In this document: piece by piece, positions 45,101-63,278 of the stretch
Layout: each line of letters starts with the position of its first letter
Numbering within the stretch: the stretch's first letter is position 1
Assembly (NCBI RefSeq): GCF_020382885.2
Contig: NC_058513.1
Coordinates: 8,527,774-8,591,773 of the forward strand
Direction: 5' to 3'
Origin: Scatophagus argus
Lineage: Eukaryota; Chordata; Actinopteri; Scatophagidae
Length of the DNA stretch: 64,000 bases
The notes under the pieces: model-generated
Databases searched by the model: none
What the model saw: only the letters and a program-made list of their open reading frames with translations
What the model was told of the DNA's origin: nothing
Position numbers and translations under genes: made by a program

Positions 45101-47993
45101 GATACAACTGTCTAGACAAACTGAAACTGTTAAAGGATACACAACTTCTCATCATCTTGAAATGTGAAGTAGAGCTTGACGAAGAATGGATGATCTAGAT
45201 TTGACATCAAATCCCTTTCTCTTTTCACATACTGCGCTTTGTTCTCCTTCATAATATGGCGCTTCTCTAAAATCTTAACTGGAAGATAAAAAAGAAAATT
45301 TTAAGTATACAATAGGATAATACCAACAACTTTTCCATTATGATAAAGTGTAATTCACCAAAACTGGTGAATTAAGACTTACTTGCATATTCTTTTCCTG
45401 TTACCTGCTCTCTTGCCAGGACAACCTTTTGATAAAAGAACAAAAGAAAAACACATAACATGGCAACTTACCTTCTTGTCAGACTTAAGAGAAATTGAAG
45501 TAATTCTTAGAGCCTGCTCTGTCAATTCACCTCAAATGAACTGAAGATGACTCATCCAAGCACATTAATCAAAAGAATGCTAGCATGTAGCAACACCTAC
45601 CCAGTTATAATTCAAAACTGGAATGCTAGTTACATACCGTCGAGAAGGAACCCTCTCCCAGGATCTTGCCGAATTTGAAGTCCTCTGGCTTCTTCTTGCG
45701 TGGCGGGGGAGCCTGTACAGCTGGCTGTGTGCGAAGGTCTGAGCCCTGGCTGCTGGCAGACGCTCCTACAGCACGGGCTTCTGAGGCTGAACCCTCCATG
45801 CTGGGACAGTGGCTACTGCTTGCGCCTGGGATAGCAAGTGGCGAGCAGGAGTCAGGGTGGTTTCTTACCATCGATGGATGCGAGCAGGAACAAATGACAA
45901 CGCTGGGCTGAATGGGCACAACATCATACTGGAACAAGAGATGAAACATTGAGAATATATCAGTCAGCAGGGTGATGTAGCTGTAGTCCTTTTGTTCTCT
46001 GAAAGAAAAAAGAATGTCAACATGCCCTTTAATAAAAAGGCCATGTTCACGTATGATTTACATACTGTACCTTCACTTAAGAAATATGGACTGAAAAACG
46101 TACCGTTTAAAACACTCAACAACTACTGTTGAATAGTGCTGACTGATAAATATTCTCATAATCAACATATGTACATGTGCAATAATACATCGCAAAAGAC
46201 TGAAATAAGATGAGGTGGATCAGGTGGAGCCTTGATACATGGTCCATCAGGTCATTTGGCCAAATAGATGAAGCCCCAACTATCAACAGCTAACCTCAGA
46301 TTAACCGGTGTCAAGCTGGTGGTGTCTGAAAGGTTAGCTAGCAGGATGGCTGAGAAAGGAAACAAAATTAGGGTGCATCATATTTTTATCATATATGTTT
46401 ATGTGTATTGTACCAGTCCGGATTAATACATACAATTTGTTGAATTTTCTGCTGCAGGAAAATGGACTATATAATAAAAACAATGATGTACAATTACCCA
46501 AACTATTCCTAAAACGTATAAGACTTGAAGAGATGGTTTGAAGGGTCTGGATCACACAGAGTACTCCCATGTTAAAGGTCCCCCACTAAAACATTCATAA
46601 TAGGACATCATCCAATTTCAAATGAGACCACTTGAGGAGCAATGTCTATTTGATAAGGACGTGCAACGACTACTGATGTCTTCTGGGCGGGTGGTCCCCC
46701 ACCACCACTCGACCCCAGTGCTAAAGTTGTCAAAAGAAGAAAGAAAGAAAAAAAACTACGACAAAGTTAATGCTTTCGTGTGACGGCTTTACATACTACC
46801 ACAGCCACACTGAGCTAATCAAATTCGTATGTACATGATCAAAATGACATGGCAACTAACACACACCAACAATGACGACAAACCCACTAAATGAGTAGTG
46901 AAAATTCATAGATAACATAGAGCGACAGGTTGTGCTTTCCAGCAAACTCTTTGGTTCAACTGCCAAAGTTAGTTATTTTTGACTTACTGAACTACTGTGA
47001 CACTCGGTGCATATGTTTTTCAGCTAACATCTCAGTTGACGTTAGTTTGTTCAGTTAGCCTAGCTTCTTCCCATTCAAATCCAAGGTGTGGCCATTTAGC
47101 TGCCTTATCCGGACATGACTGTATAGTTACCAATTGGACGTGTAACAATCTAGAGACCCATTACTATTGGTCAACCACGTAATGGTTGATAGAAAATGTC
47201 AGCTAACGTTAACCTAAACCCAAGTACTTGGGTAATAACAGGCCTGTGCGAACTTTCCCTGCTAACTAACGCTTGCTAGCAAGCTAATGTTAGCTCTTAC
47301 TGCCTTGTCAAATAATGCCGGCCATCACTGACAGCGAGTTATAAACTTAACGCTAAGAGCCAGTCAATTAGCTAACGCTAGCAAATCAGGTAACATAAGT
47401 AACTTCAAAACCTTATACCATTTTCACGCAACGTCATTCAATCCTGCTCAAAGTTAGTGTGCCAACGTTAATGTAAAAATGTGCAAGTTAACAGGTTGAC
47501 AAGTAAGCTACACAATGTTTACCTTAAAAATCTATCTTCTAACCAAAGGTGGAACGCAATAAAGCTAATGTTAGCTTGTTAGCAAGCAGGAGCATCGCTC
47601 GAAAGCGCGAACATGTTTAGCTAACGTAAGCCAACAGATAATGCTACCGACCAAGGGGAAATGGTCATACATCATATAAAATAGCAAGCACTGGTAAATG
47701 CTAAATCAGCACCGTGTAGTTCGACGAACCATTAATCGTGACTCAAGCCAGGCGTTGGACAACCTTAACGTGGCAAACATTAGGTGTTGTGTTAGCCAAC
47801 ATTAGCGAGCTAGCGTTGCTAGTGAGACGTAACGTTAGACAATCTTTGCGGCTAGCACCGCTCTTCAAATGAAGGCCCGACGTAACTATTTGTTGTCAAA
47901 CAGCCGCCACGCTGTACATTTTGAGTGCCGGCTTCGAACTGCAATTCATGTTAAACTTAGAACACTTACCAGCTGACTTGTAGCTCTTGCCAT
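42120..47993 (-). CDS. pdpk1: 3-phosphoinositide-dependent protein kinase 1, 565 aa
   Basis: Fourteen minus-strand exons join in phase: 47970-47993, 45638-45928, 45383-45425, 45141-45278, 44835-44979, 44637-44734, 44400-44475, 44216-44284, 43880-43976, 43538-43711, 43137-43354, 42854-42911, 42343-42495 and 42120-42233. The protein starts [15 protein letters not shown], as in human. The kinase domain has GEGSFST (glycine loop), Lys121 in AIKILEKRH, HRDLKPEN (Asp215), DFGTAK (Asp233) and the autophosphorylated serine of [14 protein letters not shown] (Ser251, human 241). The C-terminal PH domain spans the last three exons ([18 protein letters not shown] to [20 protein letters not shown]). PDK1 activates AKT, S6K, SGK and PKC by phosphorylating their activation loops, at membranes through PIP3. 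The gene is upstream of KCTD5 on the same strand, as on human chromosome 16. A CRE-like TGACGTCG at about 48078 lies before the start. Confidence 0.98.
42968..43016. repeat. (TATATC)n / (TATATG)n microsatellite
   Basis: Imperfect ATATCT and ATATGT units lie in a PDPK1 intron close to the exon at 42854-42911. Confidence 0.85.
44579..44610. other. Perfect 12-bp inverted repeat in a short PDPK1 intron
   Basis: TGAGAAGTACAC (44579-44590) and GTGTACTTCTCA (44599-44610) are exact reverse complements separated by 8 bases. The hairpin would form about 26 bases inside the intron from the donor of exon 44637-44734. The intron is only about 160 bases long. Confidence 0.6.
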
Positions 47994-55031: not shown

Positions 55032-58000
55032 TCAAGAGAGCAGCTGAATAACTTCTCTGGCTCTGTGCGCCCTCTGCTGGGCAGTCTTGTCCTCTCCTGC
55101 TTGTCCTGACTCTTCAACCATGGCCAAGGCCTTTGTCACTGTGGTGTCCCTGGCTCCACCACAAAGCCCCTCCAGGTACTGCAGCAGCACTGAGAACTTC
55201 TCATCTGGAATCTGAGCACAAGTTATTTTAAATGGTTACACTGATTGAATGTTGTCACTGCCCACTAATTCACATACTATGATTGTCTATGTCCAATAAA
55301 AGAGCGAGTATGTAAATAAATACTTACTGATAGAGAATATACATTATAATGTACATCAAAATCAGTAAGTAAGTAATTTTAAAAGGTAGCACAAGAGAAC
55401 ATTTTTATATATATCTTCAGGGTAGCTCATAAAGATTGATATTACAAGAATTACATAAATTCATTGAAATCATTCAGGAATACTTCAATTAACTATTCAA
55501 AAACTCAAATGACAATAGCTCAACTGTGAGTTTCGTTTTGTTTCTTTAGAGAGTGGGTGTAACTCACAAACTAATCAAAACAGGAAGGCAGCTCTGAGGT
55601 CAACAACTTCCTCAGCTTAAAAAAAAAAGAATAAAAAAAAAAAATCCACCATCACAAAGAGCCCACGCAGGTTAGTTTTTACCTTTTCAAGGTCAAACAT
55701 GTGCTGCAGTAACCATGTCTGTCTGGTCTTCTGGAACTTCCACTCTGTGCGGTTTTCAGCCCAGCTACAAAGAGAAAACCAGTGCAAGACCATTCAACGT
55801 CTGAGCTAGAAAACTGGGTTGTTTTATAGTGTGTTTTGTCCTCCCACATACATAACACAGGCCTGGACAAAAGAGTGATCTTGTTCTAAAGAACAAGCAT
55901 AGTCAAAATCAAAGCAGTATAGGATATGGATCAACGAGCATACATTTCCCACCATACAATGTGACAGCATCTTTCATTAGAACCTGCCTGATTGGTCAGC
56001 ACAAACAGATTTTTGATTCAGTGCCTCAAGTTTATAGCACAATCTTTCTCTTCTGTCTAAAGCCTTGTAGAGCTGCAACAATTAGTTGATTAATTGACGA
56101 GCTGATCAAAAGAAAATTAGTGGCCTACTATTCTGATAACTAATTAATGGTTACAATGATATTTCAAGCAAAAACATCTGCTTTTCTTTGTCATTTATGA
56201 CAGTGAATGAGGACTCTGGGTTTTGGACTATTGGTGACTAGTGAATATAAATATTGTATATGTGCACTGATATGAGCCATCTACTCCTTCCTTCTTGGTT
56301 AAGTACAACACAAATGGGGCAATTTTGGTTTTCTTCATAAGCCGGGGGCCTGTCCTGTACAAAATAAAACTGGCTCTTACCAGGTGAGGTAATCCAAGGC
56401 CTGTTGAGGTGCAGTGGGTGCAGATGCTTCTGTTTTTTTTAAAGGTTCTCCCTCTGCTTTAAGCCTCTTCTTCTCTTCCTTTTTGAGGATCTTCTTCATC
56501 TTCCTTTCCAGGACCCGCCTCTCCTCGGGGCTCAAGTCCTCCTCTCCCTCCGGCCCTTGTGGCCCCTCTGGGTGACAGGGTGGATCTGAAATCTGGCACA
56601 ACAAGGCAAAACAAAAGCCCATGAGAGTTATCTATGTTAACAGACCTTCCTTTATAGACCCTTATCATTTTCTGTGTTCGTGTGAACTAAATGGCTTGTA
56701 CTGACTGTGATTGAACGATAAGAAAAATGTTAAAACAATCATCTCACTGTTGTGTACATTCAGAGCTGTTTCTTGCCAATGTTCAATTATGTGACAGTTT
56801 TCTGGGTCAGTGCAGAGCTCCTCTTTCATGAGCCTCAAATATCTTAAGTTTGAAGTCTTCTGACTGAACACTAAATGTGACATTTTGTTGTTCTGCAGTG
56901 TAAAGATGAATGAAAGCTAAATGCACTTTTTGGGTCCGGATCACTTCCTGTTGCGCTGCAGCTCAGAGGGACGTTTCCTGTTTCTACAGCCTTGTGAGGT
57001 TATGAGCATTATAGGCATTTATACTGTGTGGTAAAGTTCACTGTGGTGCTGCAACACCCCTTCACATTGCATTTTGACACAGCTGCACTGTTTAAAAATA
57101 GCCACATGTTTAGTCAGGTTTTTAACAAGTGATACAAAGGCAACACAAAAAACAAGTGTTACGTGAGTGAACTTTGAATCGAAACAAAAGCTGGATTTCA
57201 GTTTCATGACAGAGAAACAGCACTAACAGCGAGAAAAAGAAAGAAATGTTTTACTTTATTACAAGATGAAACAAAATTCTAGCTCCCCATGTGCCTGCAG
57301 AATAACTGATATTTGGTAAAAAAAAAAAAACTCTAAAGTCTAAAGAAAACTGAATTAAAACCATTTCACCGCCTTAGCCAGAAACCACAGCACAACTTAA
57401 AGGCTGCATTTAACTCTCAGAGGAAGTTAAACAAGGGACTCAGTATGCTCTTTGATTTAACGGAGCTCAGTCTGCACCGTGATGAAAAAAAGGGGAGGGG
57501 AGGAAAAGATTCTGATCACATGACAACAAAGTAATTCTGAAAGTATGCTGGCAGTGCATTGCCCACAGCCACAGAAATATAAACGTCCTTCACTGCGAGT
57601 GATCGTGTCCATGTAACGAGCGTCATTTTCAGAGCTTTGAGTCGCTCCGCAGCATCGGACTGGTGGATACAAACAGAAGACGAGCGGGTGACGAAAGCAA
57701 AAAAAAAAAATGGTGAGTGAAAACATGTGTTTTAAACGAGCAGACAGTTCCTCAAAGGAAAACATACAAAAACTGGCCAACAGGGACATGCGGTTACAGA
57801 AAAGATTTTAGTAATAAAACATTTATTAAATCTAGTCAGCGCTGTGTATACTTAGAGATTTATAATGACTTCCCAGTTAAGTTCAAATTTTTTGCTCAAC
57901 TCCGAGTTAATTTAGGAAGGAAATGTTCGCACCTCATGTGGTAAGAGTATGTTCCTGTGGAAATGTATGATACACAGGCTGAGTAAAACTAAACACTGTT

Positions 58001-61000
58001 TAAAATGCATGAACAGCTGATAAAATAGGTTAATTACGCAAACAAGGTTGCTCCACACAATGCATTTCCAACTTATTTCTATGCACTAAAAGAGCAGCTG
58101 ATTTGGAGAAGAAAGGTGATGAATACTTGGACACAAATTATTTGAACTATTTGCTGATAGTTAAGTAGATTTCAGCTCTCAACAAAGAGGGGAGGGTGAT
58201 GCTACAGAGGACGGGATCTCATCAGTGGGTGTTTTCTCTTTCCATTTTCAGTCTAATCACACTGCAGACTTGTTCAACACTGAGAGGAGCACCACACCTC
58301 CATTTAATGACAGCTCAACCATCATGGCCACTTCCATTTCAACAGTCTTGCATACCAATGAGTTAGATGTAATTGCAGCCAATGATATGACCTCCAGAGC
58401 AAACTATGTCTACAGTTTCTTGGCTGGGCTGGGCTTCATTGCGGGATGCTTCCTGCTCTACAGCTTCATTCAGACCTACAGAGCCCAAAGACGGCTAGCC
58501 TGGCTCGACTGCCTGCTCTGGGCCTACTGTGGCCTGCAGATGCTACTCCTACTCTTGTCTCTCCATGCTGTGGCTTATAGGCCTGGCTACCTGCGGACCA
58601 CAGGTTTGGGCTGTGCCATTCTCTCCTTCAATATCAACGCAATCTCTCTATGCAGCCTGTTGGTCTTAGTGCTGGTGGCTCACGTCCTAACTCTGGATCC
58701 GCCATCCCACGCCCTGCTGAGGAAGCCTAGGATCTGCGTGGCTCTGGTAACCCTGACTTCCATCCTTATTTCTGTGCTGCTGGCTGGGCTTCGCGGACCC
58801 TGCCATGGTCTGCAGGAAGAGAGCACTTGTTTTATGGATCTAGTTAGTGCTGGTGTTTTGTATCCAGCTACTAGGTTGTGCTTAGTTTTTCTGATTCCCT
58901 ACATCGTCCAACTGGGACTTTTGATAGGTGGCTGCTTCCGTCAGTGGAAATCTAAAGGACGTTTTCTCTCCGGCTCTGAAGAGGGTCCTATGTTCCTGAC
59001 AGTCACAGTGGTTGTGTTTTTCTGCCAGCTCTTTTACAGCGTGGTGCTGGTGAGAGGAGCACAACTTGGGAAGGAGGAGCTGAGCCCTCATGAGCGAGCA
59101 TTTGTGAGCGTGGCCGAGTTTGTGCTGTTCTCGGGGAGCAGCACCAGCCTGCTGCTCGTGCTGCTCATGCACAGGCCGTTTCGAGAGAGTCTCTACGGAG
59201 CGCTTAGGCAGCTGAGAGATTGCTGTCGAAGTCCAGGGCGCACGCAGCCCAACAGAAACATCATAGCTCCCCACATCGAGATCACGGACACCCTGCAGGA
59301 CATAGAGTCATAGAGGACAAAAACACTCCTCTTTGACAAGAGAACTCTTCTGATGCAGTCAATTAAAGACTTTGAACATCTGATAGATTAGACATATTCT
59401 TACTATATTTTTTTAAACACTTTAGCTGGTTATTTTGCTCTTAGGTGACAATGTACATGTTTTTACATATACGCATTCTAATTTTTAATGTCTCCAGTAG
59501 CTGAAAGCTGGCAAAACTATTTGGGAAACATTTGCTAAAATATTTTTGTTTTGGTTTATTGTGTATTTTTACTATACAATAAGTAAGTGAATATTCTGCT
59601 GTACATCATCACATCTGTGCAACATACTGGTACAGTCCGTAATGTTCCTATAATAACAATATGTTTATATATGAATTAGGCAGTCAAAAATGACTTACTG
59701 TTTGTATGATGTACAGTCTTATATGTCTTTTACCTGCTCTTGAACACACCTCTCTTCTATGAGAACAAACTCTCTTTCCAAGAAAAGATCTGCACAGAAC
59801 CTCATTGAGACTAAATGCCTGGAAAAACCTCTGCAATTCCCAAAATGCCAAATAGGAAACATTCAGTAGAGGAAAATATAAGCCAGATTCCAAGTTTAGT
59901 ACCACAGTGTCAATGTTCTTCATGTCATTACTGTTAAAGCTGTAAAAGAACCAAAACAAGTGACCAACTTTCCAACTCCTTTCAAGAAAGTGATGGGCAC
60001 CAGTTCTAGGAATAACTGACTTGCATGGATCATGTAGTGCATTGGTGCCAAGACAAAATAGCACAAAACCAGGGACCAGTAGGAAAATTAACATAGGAAC
60101 CGGGTTGCACAAGATGTTGGCATCACGTGAAATGTCAGACCTCATTCACACAGTTAAAATCATAGTGGCATAGATATAACATATATACATATATATATAT
60201 ATATGTTTGTGTGTGTGTGAGAGAAAATCTTCAGATGCTACAGCAATAACATGGTAAATCTTCTACAGTCTCAAACAGGTGTATGAAATCCAAAACACAA
60301 AGCAAAAGCTAATTTAACTTTCTTTTGGTGCTAAGTACTCTGAATCCAGAAAAAATATTCCCGTCTGTCCTTCATCTTGTTTAGTGTAAATATGCTGTCA
60401 GCCTGTCTTCACTATAAGTGCCGCAATTCCCATATTTATATATTTCAACTTTCCACAATCATAGTCGCATTCACACTTCAGTGCCAGTGTTGACAAGTTG
60501 GTTTGAGGTTCTAACATGACATAATTACTTTTGCAGTATAATAATTTCTTAGAAAAACACATACCAGTGTACAATATGATCAATTACTGTATTGCTAATA
60601 AAGTGAAGCCAAAGTCATGATATTTTCATGTTGGGCTAAAGAGATCTGATTTGTGTGTGTGTGTGAGAGAGAGTGTGTCAGCATTGTGCATTTGTGTACC
60701 TTACTGTAAGTGGTGGGTGGTACCACAACACGTCTCTAGATTTACTGTAACACCTGATATAGTCACAACCACAAGGACGGGGAGGATTAGACAATGCAAC
60801 CCAAGAACACTACAGTTAAAGGTAAGTTTGAGTTATATGATATTAATGTCAAAGTGTACGTATAACAAATTGATTTAGGCCAAAGATAATTGACTTATAG
60901 TGTCTTATAGTTTTATAAATTAAAGTCGCTGTATCTTTCAGTTGTACCATTTTTAACCCAATGTAACCTGAATGTAATCTAAAAGCAGCTGTAACTTAAC

Positions 61001-63278
61001 AAGAATTAAAGGCTTTTAGTCAGACAGTTGATGTCAGAAAACAAGGAGGGAGAGAGAGAGAGAAAATGGGGACAGTGTGTGATAAATGTTCCTGCTCTGG
61101 TTGTCGCCTTAAACTTCTAGACTTCCAGGGTGCCCCACTATGACATTTTTGCCATTTTACTCACAAGGAGGACACATCATACTTTGAAGGACCCTTTATT
61201 AATCTTCACTCCGAAATAAATTTCAAAACTGCCGGAAATCTGACATATTTTCAAGACAAGAGCTTGTTTTGGAACTGATCATGTATGATAATACTGAATG
61301 GCATGGTATATAAAGGAAGTCTGGTCTGATATGACATTTAGTCAGAGTGGGTATAATCACTCACATCTAAACAAGAAACAACCCTTAATCCAAAATTGCT
61401 CAAAGTAATTTCCAAAGTGCCCATCAACTTTTGTGTGCAATCTACTATCATTCACTGATAATGTATCTGTTCATTCATACTAAATCTAAGTTTTGAGAAG
61501 CTGGAAACAAACTTTTGACTGCCTGCACTAATCTTTTCTGTTTAGAAGAAAGTGTGGCCATCAACACCACTGTACATCTAGAAGACCACTGTGCAGAAAG
61601 AGGAAACGGATGGCAACACAGACTTCTCAGGGGCTAAAAACCTGTGGGAAACTAAGAACTACAGCAACTTAAAAGATCAACACAATAGTGGAATGTGGAC
61701 ATGACCATGCAAGTGGACTACAGACTCATAACTGAATATAACTTGACTGCTCAACTAAATGACACACAAACAGCAGTTGTCTCTGATTTCCTGCATGCGG
61801 CTTTAGAGAGCCATCAGCATTATAATATTAGTCTCCTGTTCTCCAGTCTCTACACTATAATCCTGTTCCCTGTTGGCTTCATTGGGAACATCCTCATCTT
61901 GGTGGTCAACCTGGACCACAAAGGCCGTTTGTCAGCCCCAGATCTCTACTTTGTGAACCTGGCCATGGCCGACCTCATCCTTGTGGCTGACTCTCTAATT
62001 GAAGTGTTCAACCTGAAGCAGGGCTACTACGAAATTGCCAGCCTCTGCACCTTCATGAATCTTTTCCAGCAGGTCAACATGTATAGCAGCATCTTCTTCT
62101 TAACCTGGATGAGCTTTGACCGGTTTGTAGCACTGACTGGCTTCATGGGTCGCAGCATGCCACGCGCACGCCTCAGCTGCTGCCTTATATGGACGTCTTC
62201 GTCTTTGCTGACCATGCTTCCTTTTGCTATAGCTCAAAGTCAGCACGCTGGTGAACTCCATTTCTGTTTCGCTAACGTGACCCAGATTCAGTGGCTGGAG
62301 GTGATGCTGGGTTTCTTGCTGCCTTTCTGCATCTTGGGTGTGTGCTACTGGAGGATAGCACAGGTGCTCCAGCAGAGCCAGAGGCAGCAAGGAGGCCCGC
62401 ATCAGAGGCCTCGCAGACAGAAAGCCCTGCGGATGATTTCAGCAGCTGTGTGCATCTTCTTCCTCTGCTGGCTCCCAGAAAATGTGTTTGTAAGTGTTCA
62501 CCTTCTAAGAGGTGACACAGACGGTGGCACTCTGTGGGAGGACTACCCCCTGACAGGTCATGTGGTCAGGCTGGCTGCATTTTCCAACAGCTGCCTGAAC
62601 CCACTCATCTATGGTTTCCTTGGGGAGACCTTTCAGGATAAACTGAGGATTTTTCTCCAGCAGAGAAGCAGATGGACCAAGCTGTACAGGTCAACCTCCA
62701 GAAAACCTATCTACGTATCAGCTGCAAGCACCAGCATACATGAAACACACGATAGACCAAGCCAGTCCACAAATTTAAGCTCAAACATCCCTCCACAAAC
62801 TGTTTTACTCCCCTCAAATAAATACAGTGGGTCACACAGATAATAGATAGCAACATGTCTGTGCTATGAGCGTAAAGACGGTTATTATTAATAACAATTC
62901 AAATGTTGTGGAAGCTTTTCTGAATACATTAATTGCAACATTCTTACCTCAATTGGCTTTGCCTTCTGCAGTTGATCTGTCATTTGTTTCTTTTTTCGTT
63001 TCTTTTCCTGTTTTTTATCATCTGTTGTGATCTGTACAGGAGCCTCCTGAATTGAATAAAAATTTTATATTATTATTATTATTATTTTGGTATTTTCAGG
63101 TGGCGTAATCTAAAACAGTACAAAGAACTGTGCTACTTACCTCCACTTCCATCTTTTTCCTTTTCTTTTGTATTTTAGTGTCCATCATTTCTTCCATATT
63201 AAAGTCACTGCCAACTGAATTCAACTTCTTCCTTTTAGGTGTATTTTTGTCTGATTTAAAAGATTTGTCTTTGGCCAT
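55032..63278 (-). CDS. C7orf50 homologue (WKF-domain protein), 236 aa
   Basis: Minus-strand exons 63141-63278, 62948-63046, 56381-56592, 55683-55764 and 55032-55211 join in phase to 236 residues. The N-terminal third is lysine-rich with nuclear-localisation-like runs ([18 protein letters not shown]). A glutamate/lysine-rich helical stretch ([15 protein letters not shown]) follows. The C-terminal domain has the signature that names the family: [21 protein letters not shown] (WKF at 157-159), then [16 protein letters not shown] and a terminal helix. The protein is widely conserved and largely uncharacterised; the basic runs suggest a nuclear or nucleolar place. The second intron (56593-62947) encloses two receptor genes on the other strand, as GPR146 and GPER1 are associated with C7orf50 in human. 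Start codon context CCATGG is good. Confidence 0.93.
56068..56240 (+). repeat. Second, truncated copy of the hAT-like element
   Basis: It begins TAGAGCTGCAAC, the same end as the 33530-33873 element seen on its minus strand. It then shares GATAACTAATTAATGG-type sequence and the AAAACCC-AGACTC block (here GACTCTGGGTTTTGGAC) with that copy. The far end is missing. Unlike the first copy it lacks the nested LINE tail, which shows that the LINE insertion came after the family spread. It lies between the C7orf50 exons 55683-55764 and 56381-56592. Confidence 0.65.
56593..57709. other. C7orf50 intron 2, left part, with receptor promoter
   Basis: No coding exon was found in the left portion. The stretch 57590-57709 on the plus strand, with CpG-bearing sequence ahead of the ATG|GTGAGT junction at 57710, is the likely first exon and promoter of the nested seven-helix receptor gene. 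An A-run of 12 immediately precedes the ATG. Confidence 0.5.
57710..59313 (+). CDS. Atypical seven-transmembrane receptor, 354 aa, unrecognised family
   Basis: The main exon is 58252-59313. The frame upstream (58225-58251) begins with GTG and is a pyrimidine tract ending in TTTTCAG, so it is intron. The only nearby in-phase start is ATG at 57710-57712, immediately followed by GTGAGTG, giving [10 protein letters not shown]. An internal ATG at 58324 is the alternative. Hydrophobic helices fall at about 52-74, 84-108, 119-148, 161-182, 204-229, 247-270 and 284-307. Cys122 (start of helix 3) and Cys194 (second loop) fit the class A disulfide, and N3 and N20 are glycosylation sites. Helix 3 ends LVAHVLTLD with no DRY, helix 6 lacks CWxP, and helix 7 reads [18 protein letters not shown] with no NPxxY, though an F-R-x-x-L helix 8 follows. 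Its position is that of human GPR146, but the sequence does not look like GPR146 to me. Confidence 0.8.
59314..61700 (+). other. C7orf50 intron 2 between the two receptor genes
   Basis: Contents are the 3'UTR of the seven-helix receptor (an ATTAAA word near 59362), a TATATA repeat near 60185-60205, a (TG)n(AG)n repeat near 60652-60672, a GA repeat near 61048-61065, and the gper1 upstream region. The splice-like boundary GGTAAGT at about 60821 follows a short frame that could belong to a gper1 5'UTR exon. A minus-strand frame at 59684-60145 was considered and rejected. Confidence 0.5.
60640..60680. repeat. (TG)n(AG)n compound microsatellite
   Basis: TG units followed by AG units lie in the spacer between the two nested receptor genes. 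Confidence 0.85.
61701..62843 (+). CDS. gper1: G-protein coupled estrogen receptor 1, 380 aa
   Basis: A single-exon frame encodes a class A receptor. The frame is open from a GTG at 61695, but the first ATG is at 61701 ([16 protein letters not shown]). Diagnostic blocks are [11 protein letters not shown] (helix 1), [19 protein letters not shown] followed by IEVFNL (helix 2), [19 protein letters not shown] (helix 3, with DRF replacing DRY), RRQKALRMI and [14 protein letters not shown] (helix 6), and [20 protein letters not shown] (helix 7 and 8). These match human GPER1 closely. The N-terminus has NLT, NDT and NIS glycosylation sites. The receptor answers estrogens quickly through adenylyl cyclase and is studied in fish oocyte maturation. 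It lies on the opposite strand inside intron 2 of the C7orf50 homologue. The nearest polyadenylation signal after the stop is at 63055-63060. Confidence 0.97.
63055..63060 (+). terminator. gper1: Candidate gper1 polyadenylation signal
   Basis: AATAAA lies 212 bases after the gper1 stop and immediately beyond exon 2 of the C7orf50 homologue. An earlier AATAAA at 62817-62822 falls inside the gper1 coding sequence. Confidence 0.45.

Follow-up and report, generated by a model that had tools for sequence, protein, structure and literature searches.

A putative non-canonical class A receptor, probably distinct from gpr146, nested in the C7orf50 gene of the fish Scatophagus argus

In mammals, the receptor gene GPR146 lies inside C7orf50, upstream of GPER1. 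The 64,000-nucleotide stretch of the Scatophagus argus genome analyzed here (the window; C21:8527774-8591773, in a genome of 570.7 Mb in 48 contigs) carries in this position, inside C7orf50 and upstream of gper1, a gene predicted to encode a seven-helix protein of 354 amino acids. The locus raises the question of what this gene, hereafter the candidate, might be: a GPR146 that has changed beyond recognition, another receptor, a decaying gene, or a membrane protein of different origin. The explanation that we favor, and that we hold as a whole to be somewhat on the probable side, is an intact descendant of the class A receptors, distinct from gpr146, whose activation core has been dismantled and that would work as a binding or scavenger-like receptor. 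Positions given without a contig are those of the window.

Results and Discussion

Descent from class A receptors

The candidate was compared with 58 class A (rhodopsin-like) receptors of the same genome, comprising 8 from a gpr146 search, the 30 best PF00001 places and 20 picked by hand. The set is not random, as the last 20 were chosen among the remaining PF00001 matches (148 listed in all) and a receptor cluster on contig C19 was omitted; one member (L042) has internal stops and was entered as one open piece. A profile of 57 of these receptors, that is, all except gpr146, aligned with the candidate from end to end in hhalign, over 309 columns, with a Prob of 89.8 and an E-value of 1.8e-6 (for a single comparison). 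The candidate reversed, five shuffles of it and five shuffles that keep its hydropathy all stayed at or below Prob 0.62, and the 58 receptors, when reversed, gave a null of at most 7.03. With the same profile, gpr146 itself reached 99.4 and its reversal 0.63. Six further profiles, each built from 20 receptors drawn at random, gave the candidate Prob values of 49, 80, 80, 88, 93, and 94. Because the 57-receptor profile covers the candidate end to end and the controls lie far below, the protein looks class A by descent, and we regard it as very probably so, although as a non-canonical member. The first-pass annotation, made from the letters alone, had proposed such a profile search.

Several results weigh against class A descent. 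Pfam returned no 7tm_1 match for the candidate, but only prepro-orexin (E 1.1), whereas the same model matches gper1 (E 2.4e-46), the second gper copy of the genome (E 1.1e-49), and gpr146 (E 6.5e-16). A sequence search of PDB gave no match at E up to 10, and BLASTP against the gper1 of the window gave a non-significant E of 4.4, although the unadjusted local score of this pair was reached by none of 300 shuffles. No profile of a single subfamily rose above Prob 7.2, a value on a par with the reversed receptors. The AlphaFold2 models were poor (mean predicted local distance difference test, pLDDT, of 53.4 and 45.0), and fold searches with these poor models found no significant G-protein-coupled receptor (GPCR), the best Foldseek hit being a designed protein (E 0.58). 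The missing 7tm_1 match and the unusable models could also be explained by a seven-helix membrane protein of other origin that came to resemble class A by convergence; the end-to-end profile alignment, with reversed and hydropathy-keeping controls far below it, and the cysteines, P5.50, and F8.50 standing in register make that origin very improbable. Class A descent would mean that a receptor-like gene has been overlooked by the Pfam class A model and yet is visible to profile comparison.

No branch of class A stands out for the candidate, as the subfamily profiles stay at the null level. Bradykinin-like and chemokine-like receptors were considered as the nearest subfamily and not adopted (Prob 6.9 and 7.2). 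The pairwise z-scores are highest with the gper copies and with bradykinin/angiotensin/chemokine-like receptors, and not with gpr146. The two gper copies rank 1st and 3rd of 58 with BLOSUM62 and 6th and 7th with BLOSUM45. Four receptors that we take to be bradykinin/angiotensin/chemokine-like (L005, L006, L049, and L055) are among the top BLOSUM45 z-scores, with values up to 10.3 (60 shuffles). A ten-residue segment in the third transmembrane helix (TM3) of the candidate resembles YCSIYFLVLV of L006, which carries the class A motifs that the candidate lacks.

An intact open reading frame

Joining an ATG at 57710-57712 to 58252-59313 yields a product of 354 amino acids with seven hydrophobic segments, so that the protein described in the first-pass annotation is indeed encoded there. 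The splice sites fit the consensus well (donor ATG/GTGAGT, acceptor TTTCCATTTTCAG/TCT). The uninterrupted frame, 58165-59313, runs for 382 codons without a stop and is the second longest of the window after that of gper1; none of 500 sequences simulated with the trinucleotide make-up of the region attained this length, the maximum being 294 codons. Codon use fits that of gper1 best in the candidate's own frame (0.174, against 0.022 for the runner-up of the six frames). The GC content is 0.53 and 0.47 across the gene and 0.34-0.40 in most of the flanking 500-base stretches, and that of third codon positions is 0.61. The candidate has only two N-glycosylation sequons, at residues 3 and 20, both before the alternative start codon at 58324. 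Since both fall within the first 25 residues, the sequence slightly favors translation from 57710, i.e., the longer form of 354 amino acids.

The state of this frame also bears on whether the gene is decaying or a recent pseudogene. Such a fate would suit its extreme divergence and the lack of relatives: a search of its own genome at E up to 1 returned only the gene itself (four places scored after a loose first pass), the viral and prokaryote contig collections yielded no relatives in a scan sensitive to close relatives only, and PHROGs gave no match. In simulations with point changes only, however, the gper1 coding sequence was left to drift neutrally to 25% identity, and all 200 runs ended with 5 or more stops (mean 13.7). 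As these runs always gained stops and the candidate frame is intact, the model speaks for continued use of the protein over most of its divergence; with 382 open codons and consensus splice sites, we consider a decaying gene very unlikely. In the 20 kb downstream of the window, a single weak candidate-like match lies on C21 at about 8594335-8594544 on the minus strand (L014:2562-2771; E 0.008, 28% identity over 70 residues, with an internal stop), downstream of gper1, and is probably due to chance.

Residues retained and lost

An anchor table built on the 58 receptors shows that the candidate retains C3.25, S3.39, C45.50, P5.50, C6.47, and F8.50. On the other hand, it lacks N1.50 (present in 58 of the 58 receptors), D2.50 (57), R3.50 (57), W4.50 (58), W6.48 (52), P6.50 (58), N7.45 (43), N7.49 (54), P7.50 (57), and Y7.53 (57). 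Six of the seven X.50 anchors are thereby lost, P5.50 being the only one left. TM6 reads CQLF and TM7 SLLLV, and the DRY, CWxP, and NPxxY motifs are absent, as the first-pass annotation had noticed. TM3, bounded at residues 119-147, has no K or R; at D3.49/R3.50 the aligner places a gap in the candidate, and counting without gaps from C3.25 the triplet is VLT. Position 2.50 is G according to the aligner and Q under a shifted register, and D in neither. Since the motifs and most of the X.50 anchors are missing, we have classified the candidate as a class A descendant that is not canonical.

The columns of C3.25 and C45.50 are both Cys in two alignments, and a helix 3-loop 2 disulfide would be formed by this pair. 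The C-terminal region contains F8.50 and a basic stretch followed by CC, which makes a helix 8 plausible, and the charges of the loops agree with an N-outside topology. The sodium pocket, the toggle, NPxxY, and DRY belong to layers 1, 3, and 4 of the reported common activation pathway (PMC6954041). A comparison covering those three layers found that key residues of them are lost in the candidate.

The genomic setting and gpr146

The features of the locus are collected in Table 1. We take the host gene to be C7orf50, as its later exons match human C7orf50. Given the position of its first exon and the start of its second, intron 1 of C7orf50, between 56592 and 63141, contains both the candidate and gper1, antisense to the host. 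The placement within C7orf50 beside gper1 that the first-pass annotation had given is thus confirmed from the exon positions, and the candidate has the GPR146-type position.

Table 1. Features of the candidate gene and its neighbors (positions in the window)
Feature	Position	Strand	Remarks
Putative coding exon 1	57710..57712	+	Start codon only; consensus donor GTGAGT directly after
Putative intron 1	57713..58251	+	GT...AG; acceptor rich in pyrimidines
Coding exon 2	58252..59313	+	353 codons; residues 2-354 and stop codon; entire seven-helix region
Alternative in-frame start codon	58324..58326	+	Product of 329 amino acids; context ATCATGG
Cys122	58612..58614	+	Aligned to C3.25, one half of the class A disulfide
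Cys194, extracellular loop 2	58828..58830	+	Aligned to C45.50
gper1	61701..62843	+	Neighbor of the candidate on its downstream side, in the same orientation; two gper copies found in the genome
C7orf50 (cholesin) coding exon 1	63141..63278	-	Donor GAG/GTAAGT
C7orf50 exon 2	56386..56592	-	Inferred edges; start at 56592 most likely, several in-frame acceptors possible
C7orf50 exon 3	55680..55772	-	Approximate edges
C7orf50 last exon	55035..55214	-	WKF domain (Pfam PF10180, E 1.1e-6)

A search of the genome located the genuine gpr146 elsewhere, at C16:16352608-16353603 on the minus strand (61% identity to human GPR146, E 2.1e-133), and a gper-like receptor (L003) lies about 12 kb downstream of it. 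This copy is 63% identical to the gper1 of the window (L004) across 304 columns. Order and strand are alike in both regions, gpr146 followed by gper on C16 and the candidate followed by gper1 on C21. This is how regions derived from the genome duplication of teleosts are arranged, and because order and strand match, the candidate is located where the duplicate of gpr146 would be expected. The C21 flank also appears to carry what we take to be WDR24. A single bacterial artificial chromosome (BAC) of Senegalese sole is reported to hold wdr24 and gper1 together (PMC6579814), and in zebrafish the UNCX region is reported as duplicated, with one copy lacking gper (PMC6543554). The 40 kb flanking gpr146 on C16 gave no C7orf50 match at E up to 1, and the host gene may therefore be gone from this duplicate; in the same 40 kb, the best match of the candidate itself had an E of 0.97.

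The shared position makes it necessary to consider that the candidate is gpr146b, the partner of gpr146 from the teleost duplication, which would have kept its place in intron 1 of C7orf50 while diverging beyond recognition and losing its activation core. Apart from the matching arrangement and the slot, which is the mammalian one, both proteins lack D2.50 and R3.50. A quick tree search was run on 60 rows, i.e., the 58 receptors, human GPR146 and residues 46-335 of the candidate; the approximately unbiased (AU) test rejected neither a grouping of the candidate with gpr146 (p 0.363) nor one with gper (p 0.265), and the candidate, whose composition is odd, remained unplaced. The gpr146 stem is also long, with 3.5 changes per column. 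However, the tips of gpr146 and gper measure 0.01-0.62 changes per column, and the end branch of the candidate reaches 8.03. In pairwise comparison, gpr146 ranks 33rd of 58 with BLOSUM62 and 53rd with BLOSUM45 (z 0.72 and 0.03, no better than chance), the score with human GPR146 was reached by 90 of 300 shuffles, and a profile of the gpr146 pair gave a Prob of 0.37. Moreover, the candidate has C3.25, S3.39, and C6.47, which are missing from the fish gpr146 and from the human protein, and a gpr146 duplicate would therefore need three reversals or chance matches.

As the genuine gpr146 was found on another chromosome beside a second gper, the sequences indicate that the candidate is probably not gpr146, and we consider a gpr146b unlikely. 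The remark at first reading that the protein does not look like GPR146 is borne out by these chance-level scores. Its suggestion of a very diverged GPR146 is disfavored, even if the slot matches and the AU test does not reject it, while the other suggestion, an orphan with a different mode of signaling, fits.

The genuine gpr146 is odd in its own right, being the sole receptor of the 58 without C3.25 and lacking D2.50, R3.50, S3.39, C6.47, and N7.49 as well; in human GPR146, these residues are missing too.

GPER orthology, or a recent duplication of gper1, was rejected, given the BLASTP result above and the fact that the recognizable duplicate of gper1 is the copy on C16; an older shared origin with gper would agree with the AU test. 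The gper copies and the candidate share C3.25, S3.39, C45.50, P5.50, C6.47, and F8.50; unlike the candidate, both copies retain the class A motifs, and a profile of the two reached only Prob 0.88.

A possible role and its meaning

The reading that we favor, an intact class A descendant distinct from gpr146, would have the following consequences. The candidate would still fold as a seven-helix protein with its N-terminus outside, and an extracellular face pinned by the disulfide could bind a ligand. The usual chain of events, from the sodium pocket and the W6.48 toggle to NPxxY and the release of R3.50, would not be usable to open helix 6 to a G protein, and any output would have to pass through another switch. 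Class A descent, the extracellular cysteine pair, and the loss of the canonical activation path together suggest binding without the classical G-protein opening. The candidate would most likely act as a binding, internalizing or partner receptor, either of the scavenger or decoy type or as a partner of gper1 or gpr146. A scavenger-like function as such, proposed by analogy, has in our view slightly less than an even chance.

The analogy is with the atypical chemokine receptors (ACKR1-4 and GPR182), in which the DRY region is altered and most of the other class A anchors are retained. These receptors are homologous to chemokine GPCRs and are reported to be devoid of classical signaling (PMC3072526). 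The parallel with the candidate would be this absence of classical signaling and was drawn by description, not by sequence.

On the other hand, C7orf50 is reported to be the hormone cholesin and GPR146 its receptor, through which cholesin reportedly influences ERK phosphorylation (PMC11749842). As gpr146 is likewise without R3.50 and D2.50, this weighs against a purely binding role and makes non-canonical signaling a serious rival: the candidate, with its intact frame and helix-8 features in the C-terminal region, could couple to G proteins or arrestin by different contacts and have no scavenger role. Nevertheless, it has lost far more than gpr146, which retains N1.50, W4.50, W6.48, P6.50, P7.50, and Y7.53, and we hold signaling of this kind to be rather unlikely.

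Concerning its origin, the candidate is probably an old member or neighbor of the receptor cluster that GPR146 and GPER1 form inside C7orf50. A bolder proposal, which we put forward as speculative and on the improbable side, is that it represents an unnamed vertebrate receptor family, the third member of the GPR146-GPER1 cluster within the cholesin gene, which kept its disulfide-pinned face while the class A activation core was dismantled, serves as a ligand trap or partner at the cholesin/GPR146/GPER locus, and survived in this fish on the duplicate from which gpr146 was lost. Among the papers listed from the open-access literature on GPR146/C7orf50/gper1, cholesin, and fish paralogs, titles and abstract openings made no mention of such a receptor, and a cartography of vertebrate class A receptors (PMC6504862) mentions a fish GPER1 subtype and contains no occurrence of "gpr146". 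If orthologues exist, they would amount to a natural experiment on which residues of class A receptors serve folding (the disulfide, P5.50, and F8.50) and which serve activation only, and the locus of cholesin, a hormone described recently, and of its receptor GPR146 would gain a further receptor.

Other observations

Rfam and tRNA scans of the window returned nothing. A frame at 45626-46057 on the minus strand presumably corresponds to the N-terminal part of PDPK1, which it resembles, and this piece gave no Pfam match. At 783-2157 on the plus strand lies what is probably a frame-broken transposase copy: a transposase frame that we take to be piggyBac-like (Pfam DDE_Tnp_1_7, E 9.8e-29, in 783-1784) overlaps with a second frame after it, 1711-2157, whose end is rich in Cys. 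Finally, the cluster on C19 (C19:15609165-15835801) is a tandem array with 31 class A matches among those listed in the PF00001 search, with open frames of 279-364 amino acids, and our guess is that it belongs to an amine-type olfactory family.

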